A stretch of DNA of 64,000 nucleotides from Bacillota bacterium (GTDB lineage Bacteria; Bacillota; TC1), in contig JAQUGR010000003.1 of NCBI GenBank assembly GCA_028683955.1, positions 62,001-126,000 on the forward strand, read 5' to 3'. Every line of letters starts with the position of its first letter. Position 1 is the stretch's first letter. Below, piece by piece: positions 19,480 to 30,147 of this stretch. Below the pieces are notes generated by a model, which was given only the letters and a program-made list of their open reading frames with translations, did no database searches and was not told where the DNA came from. A program made the position numbers and the translations under genes.

Positions 19480-20652
19480 TTACTTATCTCTGAATTTACA
19501 AGTAACATGACTTGCATCACAAAAGGGCATCATTTTAGATTCTCCACATCTGCACAATACATATCTATTTCTTGTTTCATATGTAGATCCATCACTCGAT
19601 TCTAAAGTAATACCACCCTTAACAAAAATCCCACAACTTACATGTATTTGTGGATCTTGCAATATTTCAATACTTTGAGGAAACTCTGGATCTATTTCAA
19701 AACCATCCTTTTCCCTTGCCACTAATCTACCAGTTGGACATTGGTAAGCAGCAATAATTGCCTCACTCTTCAAATCAGGATCGTCAGACATGAGTGTCAG
19801 CTCCCAAACATTCCCCTCTTCTCGATGACAAAATCTAGCATAAGCACATCTATCATCATCTAACAAATCAAGCTCTGGTCCCTCTAATACAGTAGCTCTA
19901 TCATGATATGTATCTTTAGTAGCACTTTCATCACCAATAAAACCCTCACTTACATGAGAACCATCACAAAAGGGCGGAGTCTTAGTTTTACCACATCTGC
20001 ATAAAGAATAAGTTTCCTGATCTTCATATTGTTTACCTTGAGTATAAACATACCCTTTTCCTTTAGGAGTAATTTTCTTTTCAGATAGTGGAATATTTCC
20101 GGTAACTATATAAGGTCCGTCTTTTACTATTTTAATTTTACCTTTCTTATCATAACTCATAGAAACACTCCTTTTCATAAGTTTTTCCCTATTCATTCTC
20201 ACTAACCTTGGTCGGTTATATCTTTGAGTAAGAATACAAGGAAGATTTACAATTAAAGCATACCCCAACATAATCCAAATTACAAAAGTTGGACTCCAAA
20301 ATCCAAAAATAAAAAATGGTAATATCTCTAGCCAATGCATTATTTCAGCTTTTCCAGTTTCAATAATGAAAGTATTAAGATAATCATTCTCCAAACTTTC
20401 CAGATTCTTTTTTCTAAAACCATTCTTATATGTACTAGCACCATCAGGGAGATGATGCTTCCATTTATGAATCCTTAATATTTTTTTATAAAATATATTT
20501 TCCCATTTTCTAGTTTTCAACCAAAAATTATTTGGTTGAAAGTATTTATCGTCCATTCTATTAATTATGAATGCAACTACCAATTGCATAATTGGCCAGC
20601 CAATGAAATAGGATATAATCATTAACCACTCAGGTATAAAAAATATTTGCAT
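19480..20652 (-). CDS. CrtO-like acyltransferase fused to CDGSH iron-sulfur repeats
   Basis: A 390-residue two-part protein. Residues 1-155 match the CrtO glycosyl-4,4'-diaponeurosporenoate acyltransferase family: DKYF, HKWKHHLPDGA and TQRYNRPRL are recognisable, with membrane helices near 5-30 and 105-140. Residues 175-390 hold two CDGSH [2Fe-2S] motifs, CRCGKTKTPPFCDGSH and CRCGESKMMPFCDASH, around a Cys-poor Fer4_19-like segment with RCAYARFCH. The usual CrtO protein is about 165 residues and ends where this one continues. The join is in one uninterrupted frame. The upstream gene is a CrtQ-like glycosyltransferase, so a surface glycolipid/carotenoid acyl step is suggested; the role of the redox part is unknown. 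Confidence 0.82.
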   Translation of the reverse strand: MQIFFIPEWLMIISYFIGWPIMQLVVAFIINRMDDKYFQPNNFWLKTRKWENIFYKKILRIHKWKHHLPDGASTYKNGFRKKNLESLENDYLNTFIIETGKAEIMHWLEILPFFIFGFWSPTFVIWIMLGYALIVNLPCILTQRYNRPRLVRMNREKLMKRSVSMSYDKKGKIKIVKDGPYIVTGNIPLSEKKITPKGKGYVYTQGKQYEDQETYSLCRCGKTKTPPFCDGSHVSEGFIGDESATKDTYHDRATVLEGPELDLLDDDRCAYARFCHREEGNVWELTLMSDDPDLKSEAIIAAYQCPTGRLVAREKDGFEIDPEFPQSIEILQDPQIHVSCGIFVKGGITLESSDGSTYETRNRYVLCRCGESKMMPFCDASHVTCKFRDK

Positions 20653-22167: not shown

Positions 22168-22680
22168 CTACTTATTTGTTTCTTTAGCTTTTTCAAATTT
22201 ATCTGGTCCTATATGACAATATCCACCTGGATTCTTATCCAGATACTTTTGATGATATTCTTCTGCAGTTGTATAATTACTTAAAGGTAACACTTCAACA
22301 GCTATTTTCTCTTCATATTTAGTTTGTAATTCTTTAATTGAAGCCATTATTTCATCCCTATCACTCTCATCCATATAGTATATTCCTGAACGATACTGAC
22401 TGCCTACATCATTGCCTTGTCTATTTATAGAAACAGGGTTAATCACATCATAATATAATTCAAGAATTTCAGATAAAGAAATAATTGAAGGATTATATAC
22501 AACTTTAACTCCTTCTGTATGACCAGTATTATTGTAGCAGACATCTTGATAGGTAGGATTTTTAGTCTTCCCATTCACATAACCAACTTCAGTACTTATA
22601 ACACCCTTTATTAATGATAAGTATTTTTCTGTACCCCAAAAACAACCTCCTGCTAGGTATATTTCTTTAACTTCTTCCAT
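22168..22680 (-). CDS. msrA: Peptide methionine-S-sulfoxide reductase
   Basis: A 170-residue repair enzyme for (S)-methionine sulfoxide in proteins. The catalytic motif GGCFWGTEKY is at residues 11-20 (nucleophilic Cys13), with YNNTGHTEGV, the GNDVGSQYRSGIYY segment and EEYHQKYLDKNPGGYC following. The Cys in the terminal GGYC could serve as resolving residue. No MsrB domain is fused. It follows the nitroreductase gene by 3 bases in an oxidative-stress style operon. Confidence 0.95.
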   Translation of the reverse strand: MEEVKEIYLAGGCFWGTEKYLSLIKGVISTEVGYVNGKTKNPTYQDVCYNNTGHTEGVKVVYNPSIISLSEILELYYDVINPVSINRQGNDVGSQYRSGIYYMDESDRDEIMASIKELQTKYEEKIAVEVLPLSNYTTAEEYHQKYLDKNPGGYCHIGPDKFEKAKETNK

Positions 22681-22683
22681 AAT

Positions 22684-23514
22684 TTACTCCTCTATCCAAC
22701 TAAACTTATAAGTTGTATTTTCTGTTGCTTTAATACCAGTTTCTTTTACCATAAATTCACCTTTTAGGCCACTTTCTTTTGCAGTTAGTTGAAAATGTGA
22801 AGCAGCTATACCCAGATCAATTCTTTGTATATCATAACTAAAAGCTTTACTATAGCCAGGTGTACTATATTCAAAAAAGTGGAAATCATTCCCACATCTT
22901 ACAATTCTCCAAGGTTGTTTATTTGAAGCTGAAGGTCCAAGTCTGACCATTTCTAGAACATCTCCATAAATACCTGCATCTTCTTTGGTTAATTTTGTAT
23001 TAAAATCATTATTGAAAAATAGTTGATCCCAGTCAACTCTATAATCACCCTTTGACATTTTACGCATCATCTTATCAGTTAATGATGTTTTTTTAGCAGG
23101 ATAACCTATAGGCGTAATTACTGGTATTATTTCACCAGCCTTTAAGTCAGCTTCCTTGGCAAATTGACCTCTATTAAATGTTCCACCTAACCAACATGTT
23201 CCAATTCCAATTTTAGCAAGATAAAGAATTAACTCCTCAAGCTCATATCCAAGTGCTTCTAGTGCAAAATCTCCATCTGTAAGAGTTGCTGCAATAAAGT
23301 TATTGGCATTTCTAATAACACCATAGGTACCTAACTTCTCATTACTATTTTTTTCCTTTGTATCTATAAAGGTGTATTTCAACTTAACATTCCAAGGATT
23401 TTCTAGACCTTCTATATATGATTCTATTTGTCTTTTTATTTCATCAGTTATTGATTTCTCATTATATGTTCTAACCGATTTTCTCTTTGTTATTATTTGT
23501 ATAAAACTATCCAT
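22684..23514 (-). CDS. Nitroreductase-family protein, TM1586 type
   Basis: About 276 residues with the FMN-binding start RKSVRTYN, a GIGTCWLGGTFNR motif and a second nitroreductase-like half (GPSASNKQPWRIV), matching the two-lobe TM1586-type nitroreductase family in which one chain makes the whole dimer-like fold. It likely uses FMN to reduce nitro or quinone compounds; the physiological substrate is unknown. ATG at 23514 is preceded by AAGGAG with 6-base spacing, so the longer frame to 23535 is not used. Confidence 0.83.
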   Translation of the reverse strand: MDSFIQIITKRKSVRTYNEKSITDEIKRQIESYIEGLENPWNVKLKYTFIDTKEKNSNEKLGTYGVIRNANNFIAATLTDGDFALEALGYELEELILYLAKIGIGTCWLGGTFNRGQFAKEADLKAGEIIPVITPIGYPAKKTSLTDKMMRKMSKGDYRVDWDQLFFNNDFNTKLTKEDAGIYGDVLEMVRLGPSASNKQPWRIVRCGNDFHFFEYSTPGYSKAFSYDIQRIDLGIAASHFQLTAKESGLKGEFMVKETGIKATENTTYKFSWIEE

Positions 23515-23564
23515 TAAAAGCTCCTTTTCAAACAAGTATATTGCAATATTGGACTTATAAAAAT

Positions 23565-23613: not shown

Positions 23614-23943
23614 TTACCATTTACCCTTGGTCATATGTCCAGCAATTTCAGCTTTACTTCTTTGTTTAATTACCCAAGCTTCGTCACAGGCCTTTTCAAA
23701 AACAGAAACGCAAGGAGGATCAAGATTAATCTCAATACCTTCTAAAGCAAGATCAGCAATTTTCATTGCCAAATCGATGATTTCCATATGAATATCATTT
23801 GTACGATCTGAATTATAAATTTTTTCTCCATCTTCTTCAGATAAAGCCACAAATTTTTCTTTAGGTGCTCCACATTTAGGACAAACTTCAGGTGCCTCAT
23901 TATCTTCGTGCATAAATCCACAATTAGAACATTTCCATAACAT
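23614..23943 (-). CDS. Rubredoxin-like zinc-ribbon protein
   Basis: A 109-residue protein whose first 30 residues are a rubredoxin-type knuckle pair, KCSNCGF and VCPKCGAP, as in the C-terminal domain of rubrerythrin. The remaining 75 residues are helical and acidic with two Cys (PPCVS, KACDEAW) and no ferritin-like ExxH motif, so no diiron rubrerythrin domain is present. It may be a small electron donor to oxidative-stress enzymes nearby. A promoter (TTGCTT-17-TATCAT, 24018-23990) lies in front. Confidence 0.75.
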   Translation of the reverse strand: MLWKCSNCGFMHEDNEAPEVCPKCGAPKEKFVALSEEDGEKIYNSDRTNDIHMEIIDLAMKIADLALEGIEINLDPPCVSVFEKACDEAWVIKQRSKAEIAGHMTKGKW

Positions 23944-24029: not shown

Positions 24030-24572
24030 TTATTTAAAACTAATTAATTCTTCAACAGTTTTATGCTCACGCATATCTGGTTTTATATCTGGATAGCCTA
24101 TAGCAATCATTGCAGCCAATTTTTGATCTTTTGGAATACCAACTGCTTCTGATACCAATTCTTCATTAAACACTCCCAAAATTACACAACCAAGACCTTC
24201 ATAATAAGCTGATAGTGAAAAAGTTTGAGAGGCTATGCCCGCATCAAACATCTCCCAACGATCCCCTTTGCTAGTTGAAAAGGAACCATCTTTTTCATAA
24301 CCACAACGTCCAGTTACATAAGTAACCAAAACAAGAGCTGGAGCTTGTTTAATTGTTTTTTCATTAAAAGTAAAACCATTTAAACAATCATTGGCAATTT
24401 TATCTAATAAAACTCTGTCCTCAACTACAATGTACCTTGCAGTTTGAGAATTTTTCCATGAAGGAGAGTATGATGCATTCTCTACAATCCTCTTAAAAAC
24501 TTCATGATCAATCTTTGTATCCTTAAACTTTCGGATACTCCTTCTACCTTTTAAACACTCTAAAAATTCCAT
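24030..24572 (-). CDS. Nitroreductase-family protein
   Basis: A 180-residue FMN-type nitroreductase with GRRSIRKFKD at the start, SPSWKNSQTARYIVV in the middle and GLGCVILGVFNEELV near the C-terminus, all typical of the small NfsA/NfsB-like group. It begins 12 bases after the EtfA-crotonase stop, with TAGGAGG ahead, and is therefore probably the last gene of the acyl-CoA dehydrogenase operon. A flavin reductase in this position could exchange electrons with the ETF, which is speculation. Confidence 0.85.
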   Translation of the reverse strand: MEFLECLKGRRSIRKFKDTKIDHEVFKRIVENASYSPSWKNSQTARYIVVEDRVLLDKIANDCLNGFTFNEKTIKQAPALVLVTYVTGRCGYEKDGSFSTSKGDRWEMFDAGIASQTFSLSAYYEGLGCVILGVFNEELVSEAVGIPKDQKLAAMIAIGYPDIKPDMREHKTVEELISFK

Positions 24573-24584
24573 TTTTACCTCCTA

Positions 24585-26396
24585 TTAAAAATCATTAAAT
24601 TTAGGCTTACGTTTTTCAACAAAAGCAGACATACCTTCTTTAGACTCTTCGTTAGTAAAACAACTAGTCCAGTCTCTATTTTCAACTGCTAATCCGTTAT
24701 CTAAATCTATACTTCCACCCTCATTAATAGATTTCTTAGCTAATTTTACAGCTTTCATTCCATTGCTCATTATTTTCATAGCTAAATCATTAACTACTCT
24801 ATTTAGAGCTTCTGGTGCAACTACACGACTTACCAGCCCAATTCTAAAAGCTTCTTCTGCACTTATCATCTCACCTGTAAAAATCAATTCTTTAGATAAT
24901 CCTTGCCCAACAATCCTTTGTAAACGTTGAGTGCCGCCAAAACCAGGAATAAGTCCCAGTTTCACTTCAGGTTGTCCAAATTTAGCTCTACTGCTAGCGA
25001 TACGTATATCACAAGCCATAGCTAATTCATTTCCACCACCTAAAGCATAACCATTAATTGCTCCTATTACAACTTGTGGCAAGTTTTTTAATCTAGAAAA
25101 TACAGATTGCGCAAGTGAAGAAATTTCTTCACCTTCTTCTTCATTCATATCTATCATTTTGGAAATATCAGCGCCGGCTACAAAAGCTCTGCCTCCAGCA
25201 CCTCTGACTATTACTACTTGAACAGATTCATCCTTTTCTAATTTTTCTACTACTGCCTCAATTTCCAATAAGGTTTTTCTATTTAATGCATTTAAAAACC
25301 TTGGTCTGTTTATTGTAAGATAAGCTATTCTATTTTTTATATTAAAGAGTATATTTTCCATACCTAAATACTTATCAGATGAAGGAGCAACATAATCCAT
25401 TCCTTCTGATTTTGCCTTGTTTATTGCAGCTATTAGAGGTGGTAGAATTGATTTAACATCCCCAACTATACCTAAATCTGCCACATCAAATATTGGTGCA
25501 GTATCATTTTTATTTATAGCAATAATTAAACCAGAATTTTCCATTCCGGCTACATGTTGTATTGCTCCTGAAATACCACAGGCAATATATAGTTCAGGTT
25601 TAACAGTTTTACCTGTTTGTCCCACTTGTTTATCTGCATCAACCCAACCTGAATCAACAGCTGCTCTTGAACCAGCCAAATCTCCCCCAATTGTCGAAGC
25701 AAGATCACCTAGTAGCTTGAAATTTTCTGCGTTACCAACACCTCTTCCACCACTAACAATATATTTAGACTTGGTTATATCAGAATTTTTTTTCTCTTTC
25801 TTGATTACTTCCAATATTTCCACATTATTTCCAATATCACTAAAATCTACAACTACTTTCCTAACAATACCTTTTCTCGACTCATCTTTTTCCAAGGTCT
25901 GCATAACCCCAGGTCTTATTGTAGCCATTTGTGGTCTATGATTCTTACATTGAATAACAGCCATCAAATTACCTCCAAAAGCAGGTCTGGTCATATGTAA
26001 GCCCTTTGTTTCAGGATCTATATATAAAGATGTACAATCTGCAGTCAGCCCTGTTCTAATACGTGCAGATATTCGTGGTCCTAAATCTCTACCAATTGAA
26101 GTAGCTCCAATAAGTAATATTTCAGGATCATTCTCTTTAATAATCTTTGTTAAAGCTTTTGTATAGGGTTCTGTCATATATTCTTTAAGAATAGCATCAT
26201 CAACTACAATTACTTCATCTGCTCCATATTTTATTAGTTTGTTGGCTTTCTCTACTATGTCACTTCCGAGTAGTACACCAACAACTCTCTGTCCAAGGTC
26301 TTCTGCCAAAGAACGAGCTTCTCCAAGAAGTTCATAACTGACATTTTGGATGTTTCCATCTCTTTGTTCTATAAAAACATAAATATCTTTACTCAA
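24585..26396 (-). CDS. Electron transfer flavoprotein alpha fused to enoyl-CoA hydratase
   Basis: A 603-residue fusion. Residues 1-335 are EtfA, with KDIYVFIEQRDG at the start, LLIGATSIGRDLGPR, and the FAD domain signature SGGRGVG, QVGQTGKTVKPELYIACG, then INKNDTAPIFDVADLGIVGD. Residues 346-603 are a crotonase: FVAGADIS (oxyanion hole), ALGGGNELAMACD (first catalytic Glu) and FGQPEVKLGLIPGFGGTQ (second Glu). Both halves look functional. The likely start is TTG at 26396 with AAGGTG 6 bases before it; the frame is open to ATG 26426. It would couple crotonyl-CoA hydration directly to the Bcd-EtfAB electron step. Confidence 0.88.
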   Translation of the reverse strand: MSKDIYVFIEQRDGNIQNVSYELLGEARSLAEDLGQRVVGVLLGSDIVEKANKLIKYGADEVIVVDDAILKEYMTEPYTKALTKIIKENDPEILLIGATSIGRDLGPRISARIRTGLTADCTSLYIDPETKGLHMTRPAFGGNLMAVIQCKNHRPQMATIRPGVMQTLEKDESRKGIVRKVVVDFSDIGNNVEILEVIKKEKKNSDITKSKYIVSGGRGVGNAENFKLLGDLASTIGGDLAGSRAAVDSGWVDADKQVGQTGKTVKPELYIACGISGAIQHVAGMENSGLIIAINKNDTAPIFDVADLGIVGDVKSILPPLIAAINKAKSEGMDYVAPSSDKYLGMENILFNIKNRIAYLTINRPRFLNALNRKTLLEIEAVVEKLEKDESVQVVIVRGAGGRAFVAGADISKMIDMNEEEGEEISSLAQSVFSRLKNLPQVVIGAINGYALGGGNELAMACDIRIASSRAKFGQPEVKLGLIPGFGGTQRLQRIVGQGLSKELIFTGEMISAEEAFRIGLVSRVVAPEALNRVVNDLAMKIMSNGMKAVKLAKKSINEGGSIDLDNGLAVENRDWTSCFTNEESKEGMSAFVEKRKPKFNDF

Positions 26397-27220: not shown

Positions 27221-28360
27221 CTATATCTTTAAGGAACCGGCTATAATCATTTTCATAACCTCTGAAGTTCCTTCATAAATTTCTGTTATTTTAGCATCAC
27301 GCATCATTCTTTCTACAGGATATTCTCTAGAATATCCATATCCACCAAAAAGTTGAACACAACCTCTTGTTACATCATTTGCTACTTCAGAAGCAAATAA
27401 CTTACACATCGCTGCGAGTGCATTATATTCTTTTTTCTCATCTTTAGCCAGTGCTGCTCTCCAAACCATAAGTCTTGCAGCGTCTATTTTTGTTTGCATT
27501 TCGGCTATCTTAAACTTGGTGTTTTGAAATGCTGAAATTGGTCTGCCAAATTGCTTTCTTTCTTTTACATATTGTATAGCTTCATTTAGTGCTCCTTGAG
27601 CGATACCAACTGATTGTGCTCCAATTCCAATTCTTCCACCATCTAATGCTTTAAGGGCAATTTCAAATCCTTCCCCTTCTTTTCTTAACATATTTTCTTT
27701 TGGAACTCTTACATTATCAATAGCAACTTCACAATTCGAAGCGCTTCTTATTCCCATTCTTGGCATATTTGAACCAACACTAAGACCAGGGGTACCAGCT
27801 TCAACTATAAATGCTGAAATACCATCTGTGCCTGATGCTTTATCTGTTACAGCAAAAATTACAAATATATCTGCAAAGCCAGAATTTGTGGTAAATACTT
27901 TTGATCCATTCAAAACGTAATAATCTTCATCTAGGACTGCACTTGTTTGTTGTCCTCCTGCATCTGATCCTGCATTAGGTTCAGTTAAGGAAAAACAACC
28001 TATTTTTCTACCATCAATAAGTGGTCTTAAAAACTTTTGTTTTTGCTCTTCTGTTCCAAAGTCATTGATAGAAGAGCAACAAAGGGATGTATGAACTGAA
28101 ATTGTAATGCCAGAACTTGCATCTATTTTAGAAATTTCCTCCATACAAAGAACATAGGCTAGTGTATCACCATCTGCTCCTCCATATTCCTTTGAATAAG
28201 GTATGCCAAAAAATCCACATTTTTGCATTTTCCCTAACAATTCTAAATCGAATTTTTCTTCCTCATCCATTTTTCTTGCTAACGGTTTTATTTCAGTTTC
28301 AGCAAATCTTCTATAAAAGTCTTGTAATAATTTCTGGGTATTTGATAGGTTAAAATCCAT
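27221..28360 (-). CDS. Short-chain acyl-CoA dehydrogenase (butyryl-CoA type)
   Basis: A 379-residue FAD enzyme that interconverts acyl-CoA and trans-2-enoyl-CoA. It shows CFSLTEPNAGSDAGG (FAD/CoA loop), the YVLNGSKVFTTNSGFADIF segment, QLFGGYGYSREYPVERMMRDAK and EIYEGTSEVMK, which carries the catalytic Glu of the butyryl/short-chain group. With EtfB and the EtfA-crotonase fusion downstream it forms a Bcd-EtfAB-like complex. Start ATG with AAGGAG. First gene of the operon, whose leader contains a LacI-type palindrome. Confidence 0.93.
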   Translation of the reverse strand: MDFNLSNTQKLLQDFYRRFAETEIKPLARKMDEEEKFDLELLGKMQKCGFFGIPYSKEYGGADGDTLAYVLCMEEISKIDASSGITISVHTSLCCSSINDFGTEEQKQKFLRPLIDGRKIGCFSLTEPNAGSDAGGQQTSAVLDEDYYVLNGSKVFTTNSGFADIFVIFAVTDKASGTDGISAFIVEAGTPGLSVGSNMPRMGIRSASNCEVAIDNVRVPKENMLRKEGEGFEIALKALDGGRIGIGAQSVGIAQGALNEAIQYVKERKQFGRPISAFQNTKFKIAEMQTKIDAARLMVWRAALAKDEKKEYNALAAMCKLFASEVANDVTRGCVQLFGGYGYSREYPVERMMRDAKITEIYEGTSEVMKMIIAGSLKI

Positions 28361-28400: not shown

Positions 28401-28492
28401 TTTATTGTTAAAAAAATATTTCCAATCAAATTTAATTAGAAATTCTTTACTAATTTCTATTTAACCATATATCATTTTGTTTGTCAATTTAG

Positions 28493-28522
28493 TTGATACT
28501 ATAATTATAAATCTGATATACT
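28493..28522 (+). promoter_or_regulatory. Promoter of the unknown membrane protein gene
   Basis: TTGATA (28493-28498) and TATACT (28517-28522) are 18 bp apart, about 40 bases before the ATG at 28561. Confidence 0.5.
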
Positions 28523-28560
28523 CATTACATAAATATACTTTGAAAACAGAGGTGAATTTC

Positions 28561-29142
28561 ATGTTTCTAAGTAGAATCAAAGACCTAAAAAATATTTATA
28601 GTATTGATAGTAAAGATGATTTCATAATTGATCTTCAACTTGATAGATATCGTGATGTCTATAGTGATTGGGATTATTCACCCTATCAGAATCGTGATTT
28701 AGATGATGACCTTGTTGAATATTTACTTGAATGTTCCTATGAAATAGGCCATCATTATAAAATGAAAGTTCTTTTTCATTTACCAAAAATGATTAAAGAT
28801 AAAAATAAAGAATTAGTAAGTATAAAAGGTATACGTCATTTTTTCGCCTATCAATATAAACGCAATAAAACCCAGATGTTAAGAGTTATTCGTGATACAT
28901 TAATCTTTTTTCTTTTAGGAATTTTAATGATTACAATAGGCACAATACTTAAAAATTCCTTGACAATAAATTTGTTTAATCAAGTCTTAATCGAAGGCTT
29001 ATATATTGGTGGTTGGGTTATGATGTGGGAAATGTTTTCAACCTGGTTTTTTCAAGTAAATAAATACCGTAATAAAATTAAACATTTCAAGCGTCTGCAA
29101 AATATTGAATATGAATATTTTTATACTGATGTTGAAATATAA
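28561..29142 (+). CDS. Unknown membrane protein with two helices
   Basis: A 193-residue protein that I do not recognise. The N-terminal 100 residues are highly charged and cytoplasmic-looking, with many Asp/Tyr pairs (DLQLDRYRDVYSDWDY and a DDDLVEYLLECSY stretch) and a GHHYKMKVLFHLP segment. Two hydrophobic helices follow (about 118-135 and 148-172), then a basic tail. The frame is open from 28477, but GAGGTG with 6-base spacing precedes the ATG at 28561. It stands alone between the acyl-CoA dehydrogenase operon and a converging LacI gene. Confidence 0.6.
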   Translation: MFLSRIKDLKNIYSIDSKDDFIIDLQLDRYRDVYSDWDYSPYQNRDLDDDLVEYLLECSYEIGHHYKMKVLFHLPKMIKDKNKELVSIKGIRHFFAYQYKRNKTQMLRVIRDTLIFFLLGILMITIGTILKNSLTINLFNQVLIEGLYIGGWVMMWEMFSTWFFQVNKYRNKIKHFKRLQNIEYEYFYTDVEI

Positions 29143-29148
29143 CTTATT

Positions 29149-30147
29149 TTATCTGACTGTTTTTCTTTCAATAATATCCATTGTATAGGTTTTAGTTTCA
29201 CTTATACCCTCTGGATTGTTTATTCTTCTTATGATAGCCTCAGCTACTTCCTTACCCATGCCATAATCATCATACTCCATTGTTGTAAGAGGAGGATTCA
29301 TTGATTCACTCCCTGGTTCATTGTTAAATCCCACTACTGAAATATCACCAGGTACTAGTAATCCTTTAGAATTAATTGCACCTATTACTCCAATTCCCAA
29401 GGTGTCAGATCCTGCAATTATAACTGAAGGTAAATCTTTACCTTCTAACAATTTAATGGTTGCATTCCAACCTTCTTTAGAGGACCATAAAGCTCCTACA
29501 ATTTTCTTTTCATCAACAATTAATCCATATTTATTGATTGCTTTTTGAAAAGCTGATATTTTCTTTAGTCCCGCATAGGACTCTTTATCTCCAACAACAA
29601 ACCCTATATTTTTATGTCCCTTTGCTACTAGATATTTTATTAGTTTATCAAAGGCTCCTTCTAAATCCAGGATAAAGGTATCTATACCATCCCTAGATCC
29701 ATCTCTATCTATAAATACTTTGGCTATACCGTAGGAAAGTTCATTATAGTTGGGCATCATAGAGGAGGCGAATATTACTCCATCTATGTGTAACTCTGAT
29801 ATTTTTTTACAGATTTTTTTTTCTAGTTCTTCATCTTCATGAGAACTGAAAATTACCATTGTATAGTCTGATTGCATAAGTCTTTCTTGAATGCCTCTAG
29901 CAATGTTTGCAAAAGACAGGGTTGTAAAGTTAGGTACAACTAAAGCAACAATCTTGCTTCTTTTTGTTTGTAATCCTCTGGCAAATGGATTTGGTCGATA
30001 ATTATAGTCATTTATAAAGCTTAAGACTCTTTCTCTTGTTTTCTCATTTACCATTTCTGGGTGATTTATGACTCTTGATACAGTTGAAGGATTTACTCCT
30101 GACATCTTGGCAATTTCTAAGATTGTTATAGTATCTTTTTTAGTCAT
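29149..30147 (-). CDS. LacI-family transcriptional regulator
   Basis: A 332-residue repressor: N-terminal LacI helix-turn-helix TILEIAKMSGVNPSTVSRVI plus hinge RPNPFARGLQTKRS, then a periplasmic-binding-protein-like effector domain from about residue 60 (VALVVPNFT, IDRDGS, GDKESYAGLKK, VVGFNNE). Members usually bind a sugar or nucleoside. No sugar genes are next to it; its nearest suited operator is TGCAAACGTTTGCA in the acyl-CoA dehydrogenase leader 750 bp away. No copy of that site is seen in its own promoter region. Confidence 0.9.
   Translation of the reverse strand: MTKKDTITILEIAKMSGVNPSTVSRVINHPEMVNEKTRERVLSFINDYNYRPNPFARGLQTKRSKIVALVVPNFTTLSFANIARGIQERLMQSDYTMVIFSSHEDEELEKKICKKISELHIDGVIFASSMMPNYNELSYGIAKVFIDRDGSRDGIDTFILDLEGAFDKLIKYLVAKGHKNIGFVVGDKESYAGLKKISAFQKAINKYGLIVDEKKIVGALWSSKEGWNATIKLLEGKDLPSVIIAGSDTLGIGVIGAINSKGLLVPGDISVVGFNNEPGSESMNPPLTTMEYDDYGMGKEVAEAIIRRINNPEGISETKTYTMDIIERKTVR

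Follow-up and report, generated by a model that had tools for sequence, protein, structure and literature searches.

A conserved fusion of EtfA with an enoyl-CoA hydratase in a genus of Bacillota, and its possible role in a bifurcating Bcd-EtfAB-type complex

The Bcd-EtfAB complex was the first flavin-based bifurcating complex to be described, and the hydratase that precedes it in metabolism is normally a separate, free enzyme. In a 64,000-nucleotide stretch of a Bacillota genome (the window below), which belongs to a small anaerobe known here from genome assemblies only, the gene for EtfA appears to run directly into one for an enoyl-CoA hydratase. This locus raises the question of whether such a join is genuine and, if so, what a hydratase attached to an electron carrier may be doing.

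The minus strand of positions 24585-26396 holds a single intact frame of 603 codons, from TTG to TAA, with no internal stop, and many stops occur on the plus strand of the same segment. The TTG at 26396 is the likely start codon, since AAGGTGA lies directly 5' of it and the same TTG is used in all three relatives described below, with GGGGTG upstream. A 613-residue version, beginning at an ATG 30 bases upstream, was dropped because it overlaps etfB and the conserved TTG was preferred; in the numbering of that version, the Pfam matches were ETF at 17-194, ETF_alpha at 216-296 and ECH_1 at 363-612, each near the full length of its profile. Also rejected was a separate hydratase start at the internal ATG of codon 346, which has no Shine-Dalgarno-like stretch at proper spacing. 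The gene is divided as follows:

24585..26396, minus strand: etfA/ech fusion gene, 603 aa, TTG start, TAA stop
25401..26396, minus strand: EtfA part, residues 1-332, with Pfam ETF and ETF_alpha and a complete C-terminal FAD-binding domain
25362..25400, minus strand: linker, residues 333-345, about MDYVAPSSDKYLG, kept in four species, pLDDT below 50 in the model
24588..25361, minus strand: enoyl-CoA hydratase (crotonase) part, residues 346-603, with catalytic E457 and E477

In the predicted product, a linker of about 13 residues connects a complete EtfA to a complete crotonase. Claims of the first-pass annotation that EtfA, with its FAD domain entire, continues into a crotonase retaining both catalytic glutamates were borne out by the intact frame and by the alignments. 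The C. difficile EtfA (5OL2_A, 331 aa) aligned end to end with residues 4-332 of the fusion, and the C. acetobutylicum crotonase (5Z7R) with residues 346-598. The C-terminal part has the crotonase fold, the two catalytic glutamates and the oxyanion-hole loop of the family; E457 and E477, together with the oxyanion elements AGAD and GGGNE, were invariant in all aligned fusions. The glutamates are 20 residues apart, as are E144 and E164 of the rat hydratase. The AlphaFold model of the full-length fusion (pLDDT 63.9, pTM 0.36) was too poor to indicate domain arrangement; that of the hydratase domain alone (pLDDT 70.3, a moderate value) agreed with the crotonase fold, its C-terminal helices being unsure.

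The fusion gene belongs to an operon which on the minus strand reads bcd, etfB, etfA/ech, a nitroreductase gene, a gene for a rubredoxin-like protein and a terminator-like hairpin, the successive genes being separated by 16, 10, 12 and 86 bp:

29149..30147, minus strand: LacI-type regulator, upstream of bcd here and in the loci L003 and L004 of two congeners
27221..28360, minus strand: bcd-type acyl-CoA dehydrogenase, 379 aa, the sole one in the genome
26407..27204, minus strand: etfB, 265 aa, with the bifurcation-type Gly123
24030..24572, minus strand: nitroreductase-family gene, 12 bp past the fusion gene
23614..23943, minus strand: rubredoxin-like protein, 109 aa
23565..23590, minus strand: terminator-like hairpin with an 11-bp stem and a T tail, closing the operon (consensus match only)

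The gene order of the operon is identical in L003 and L004. A 221-aa frame between bcd and the regulator gene (28477-29142, plus strand) gave no Pfam match and is missing at the corresponding place in both these loci. Elsewhere in the window, a second nitroreductase and MsrA are encoded by separate genes (22168-23535), and by one fused frame in L003:10928-12283 and L004:10921-12270. CrtO-like acyltransferase and CDGSH iron-sulfur domains, the latter with Fer4_19, form one 390-aa frame in the window (19480-20652) and in L003, and two genes in L004:13416-14680.

The solved structures nearest to the Bcd, EtfB and EtfA sequences, which are encoded together here, were all those of the C. difficile Bcd-EtfAB; for the hydratase part it was the crotonase 5Z7R. 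EtfB has glycine at position 123 (A. fermentans numbering), within the motif AIDGDTAQ, that is, the small residue expected where a second FAD is bound; this glycine is invariant in bifurcating ETFs and leaves room for that cofactor (PMC12630350). RnfC and adjacent Rnf subunits are also encoded in the genome. As far as can be judged from sequence, the redox part of the locus has the characters of a bifurcating Bcd-EtfAB.

Chance and assembly error are excluded as sources of the join, because the same fused frame, of the same length and free of stops, occurs in three other members of the genus, each assembled independently (L003/G003, L004/G001 and L027/G004), at 83-87% identity. The fusion was absent from a fifth genome of the genus, the assembly of which is only 79% complete, and the one genome of the family from outside the genus (96% complete) gave no match to it. 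Among the matches listed in 399 genomes of the phylum, whole-length ones were found only in the four members of the genus; EtfA matches listed from outside the genus stop near residue 340 to 400 (stop read-through counted), and hydratases match separately. A short-peptide-pattern scan of 84,980 species, which reaches close relatives only, returned the fusions of L003 and L004 alone. There was no EtfA-hydratase fusion among the best-ranked plasmid matches, and in the plasmid and phage collections the two genes were at most neighbours, separate in the annotated rows. Fusions of EtfA with N-terminal ferredoxin domains are already known; the join with a hydratase was not found in the open-access literature searched. 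A common annotation of the same fusion, which the first-pass annotation had named as a refuting case, was encountered neither in these collections nor in that literature. In the tree, the EtfA parts of the fusions formed one fully supported group, as did their hydratase parts, which is consistent with a single fusion event in the genus. The group of fused hydratases sits on a long stem, with open forks around its sister group, and the best unfused match to the hydratase part reached 56% identity. The join is real and is conserved in the genus.

Several enzymes that would usually accompany such an operon are lacking from this genome. The families of EtfA (PF00766), crotonase (PF00378) and acyl-CoA dehydrogenase (PF00441) had one match each in the genome, all in this operon. 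The genome (1.59 Mb) is estimated to be 98.4% complete, and absences were taken from whole-genome family searches that gave positive matches in control genomes; tblastn and inspection by eye, covering roughly 1.1 Mb of the 1.59 Mb, support presences and not absences. The family searches found no 3-hydroxyacyl-CoA dehydrogenase (PF00725) and no thiolase (PF00108) besides two weak matches to FabF and FabH; the thiolase candidates on contig C7 were rejected as being these two proteins. The absence of both enzymes from the vicinity of the operon, pointed out earlier, therefore extends to the whole genome, and the pair required by the classical butyrate pathway (thl-hbd-crt-bcd-etf) was not found. 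The six genomes of the family (G000-G005) contain no CoA-transferase of either PF01144 or PF13336, no AMP-forming acyl-CoA synthetase and no PF01515 Pta/Ptb, so that acetate must be made from acetyl-CoA in another way; no 2-hydroxyacyl-CoA dehydratase (HGD-D, PF06050) was found in the genus. In the 1.1 Mb inspected, E. coli CaiB, AckA and PatZ (ADP-forming synthetase fold) had no convincing match, and E. coli EutE had only a weak one, to a general aldehyde dehydrogenase. With thiolase, 3-hydroxyacyl-CoA dehydrogenase, CoA-transferase, synthetase, 2-hydroxyacyl-CoA dehydratase and Pta all missing, the classical butyrate pathway is very unlikely in this genome.

Several xanthine-dehydrogenase-type enzymes, nucleoside-type ABC transporters, GcvT, GcvP, and pyruvate and other 2-oxoacid:ferredoxin oxidoreductases were seen in the genome, partly by eye, which suggests that the host may live by fermentation of purines or nucleosides and glycine. 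A separate observation is that contig C4 of the host genome carries two methenyltetrahydromethanopterin cyclohydrolases (L074:16146-17105 and L075:605-1579, both above the TIGR03120 cut-off), flanking the E1 alpha, E1 beta and E2 genes of a 2-oxoacid dehydrogenase, beside an SDR gene. Such a pair is odd for a fermenting bacterium and could belong to a new one-carbon or 2-oxoacid route. Contig C5 encodes a GH3-like acyl-adenylating protein (L078:8464-10089, minus strand) with weak Pfam GH3 matches; it may activate acids in this genome, which has no AMP-binding synthetases.

The likeliest explanation of these findings, to which we would assign a probability of about 0.55, is that the polypeptide unites the alpha subunit of a bifurcating ETF at its N-terminus with an active short-chain enoyl-CoA hydratase at its C-terminus, and that it would combine with the EtfB and acyl-CoA dehydrogenase encoded beside it into a Bcd-EtfAB-type complex, operating as a self-contained 3-hydroxyacyl-CoA dehydratase and enoyl-CoA reductase coupled to Rnf. 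The C-terminal segment of EtfA is the shuttle domain (PMC9232219), and the hydratase is predicted to hang by its short flexible linker on this mobile, FAD-bearing part. The earlier suggestion of a tether to the Bcd-EtfAB complex thus holds, in that physical attachment of the hydratase to EtfA follows from the sequence, with the place of attachment more precisely the C-terminal (shuttle) domain of EtfA. On the other hand, its framing of the enzyme as a crotonyl-CoA hydratase within a crt-bcd-etf route is disfavoured by the genome-wide absence of thiolase and hydroxyacyl-CoA dehydrogenase. Since the genome has no known enzyme that oxidises or cleaves 3-hydroxyacyl-CoA, hydration would have no outlet, and dehydration would supply the adjoining reductase; the hydratase thus probably runs as a dehydratase, in the sequence short 3-hydroxyacyl-CoA to enoyl-CoA to acyl-CoA. 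NADH would be the electron donor, bifurcation delivering electrons both to enoyl-CoA and to ferredoxin, which Rnf would re-oxidise, and the tether may hold enoyl-CoA close to the reductase while its free concentration stays low. Candidate substrates are 3-hydroxypropionyl-CoA and 3-hydroxybutyryl-CoA; related crotonases are known both to dehydrate 3-hydroxypropionyl-CoA and to hydrate crotonyl-CoA (PMC7845616). Speculatively, a 4-hydroxy-2-oxoacid could give rise to the substrate by way of a 2-oxoacid oxidoreductase or dehydrogenase.

Some points speak against this proposal. A source of 3-hydroxyacyl-CoA was not found among the CoA-transferase, AMP-forming synthetase, 2-hydroxyacyl-CoA dehydratase and Pta families searched. 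Another point concerns symmetry. Crotonases are usually trimers or hexamers, and they oligomerise readily. Bcd forms a tetramer with four EtfAB (PMC5861303), so the tether must tolerate a mismatch, and joining Bcd tetramers to crotonase trimers or hexamers would be expected to yield larger assemblies. A fully specified version, in which the hydratase on the shuttle domain passes enoyl-CoA straight to Bcd, hydratase trimers link Bcd tetramers into one large particle, and, within an unrecognised fermentation branch, 3-hydroxyacyl-CoA produced otherwise than by thiolase and hydroxyacyl-CoA dehydrogenase is the electron sink that charges ferredoxin for Rnf, is rather doubtful in its entirety.

It is possible, though not likely, that the two proteins share a chain merely because equal amounts of them are needed in a small genome, the hydratase behaving as a free enzyme with no channelling. 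The linker is indeed short and looks disordered in the model, and joins arise readily in this lineage: in the same stretch, whether nitroreductase is fused to MsrA, or CrtO to CDGSH, varies from one congener to another. However, the join of EtfA with the hydratase is the one kept throughout, in four of the four operon-bearing species, with a linker of unchanged length and constrained sequence. Across these species dN/dS was about 0.07-0.14 for EtfA, 0.05-0.16 for the linker and 0.04-0.06 for the hydratase, values that are estimates, as dS is near saturation, with the linker figure (13 codons) being rough; all three segments are under purifying selection, strongest on the hydratase. Moreover, in the unfused loci examined that contain both genes, the hydratase gene is some kilobases away from etfA, in most cases upstream of it and in none directly following it, which indicates that the join did not result from plain loss of a stop codon.

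An ordinary enzyme of butyrate metabolism or beta-oxidation, hydrating crotonyl-CoA or dehydrating 3-hydroxybutyryl-CoA, would need partners, a thiolase and a hydroxyacyl-CoA dehydrogenase, that either defy recognition or were left out of the assembly. Every part of the system does match Crt-Bcd-EtfAB best, and the genome has SDR proteins for which acetoacetyl-CoA is a possible substrate; nevertheless, the nearly complete genome, searched alongside positive controls, offers only FabF and FabH, and the CoA-transferase, synthetase and Pta families are missing from all six genomes of the family, which makes this reading improbable. The ready oligomerisation known for crotonases would also suit an inactive hydratase that serves for docking or oligomerisation and gathers Bcd-EtfAB complexes into clusters, but this is highly improbable, given the invariant catalytic pair and oxyanion elements, the lowest dN/dS falling in the hydratase part, and the fact that this part is the sole crotonase of the genome.

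If the proposed dehydratase-reductase function is true, two consecutive steps of acyl-CoA reduction would be tied together, disposing of electrons and feeding ferredoxin to Rnf. The natural tie of a dehydration step to the electron shuttle would provide a test for channelling of acyl-CoA to bifurcating dehydrogenases, and of the shuttle domain as a carrier of cargo. A two-step acyl-CoA module orphaned of the usual feeder and exit enzymes searched may also point to a fermentation route yet to be identified.

The fusion can be compared with several known systems. Of the four enzymes that C. kluyveri needs to turn acetyl-CoA into butyryl-CoA (PMC5861303), thiolase and hydroxybutyryl-CoA dehydrogenase are absent here, and crotonase and Bcd-EtfAB, which follow them, are linked to each other. 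The C. difficile Bcd-EtfAB (5OL2) is similar in its bcd-etfB-etfA set, in being the closest solved structure for each of the three proteins, in the EtfB glycine and in the presence of Rnf in the host genome, but its EtfA bears no C-terminal hydratase, and the present genome is without the thiolase and hydroxyacyl-CoA dehydrogenase partners. The caffeyl-CoA reductase CarCDE and the lactate dehydrogenase complex of Acetobacterium woodii (6FAH, 7QH2), which are bifurcating or confurcating complexes, likewise have an EtfA lengthened by a fused domain; there, however, this domain is an N-terminal ferredoxin module for electron transfer (PMC9232219, PMC5861303), whereas the domain described here is C-terminal and is an enzyme for a carbon substrate. 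The hydratase part resembles C. acetobutylicum Crt (5Z7R; PRK05809) over the whole domain and in its catalytic residues, with 53% identity in the structural alignment, and differs from it in not being free-standing and in reading GGGNE where Crt has GGGCE in the catalytic turn; its score of 344.6 bits against the PRK05809 short-chain-enoyl-CoA hydratase model is below the cut-off of 394, which lowers the name that can be given rather than the likely function. The acryloyl-CoA reductase AcrABC of Anaerotignum (Clostridium) propionicum is of the same ACAD-EtfBA type, and its models NF042970, NF042971 and NF042972 were top or near-top, though below their equivalog cut-offs (388.6/600, 286.6/475 and 478/640 bits); unlike the system studied here, it has no fused hydratase, and the genus lacks the 2-hydroxyacyl-CoA dehydratase (PF06050). 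In the propionyl-CoA synthase of Chloroflexus, a crotonase-type dehydratase is covalently coupled to an enoyl-CoA reductase, to which it passes the reactive enoyl-CoA; that reductase is unrelated and NADPH-dependent, and a synthetase domain is part of the same chain. The covalent coupling of dehydratase and reductase would be alike in both cases, but in the system of this genus the reductase is a flavoprotein on a chain of its own, and it is the electron carrier of this reductase that bears the tether.
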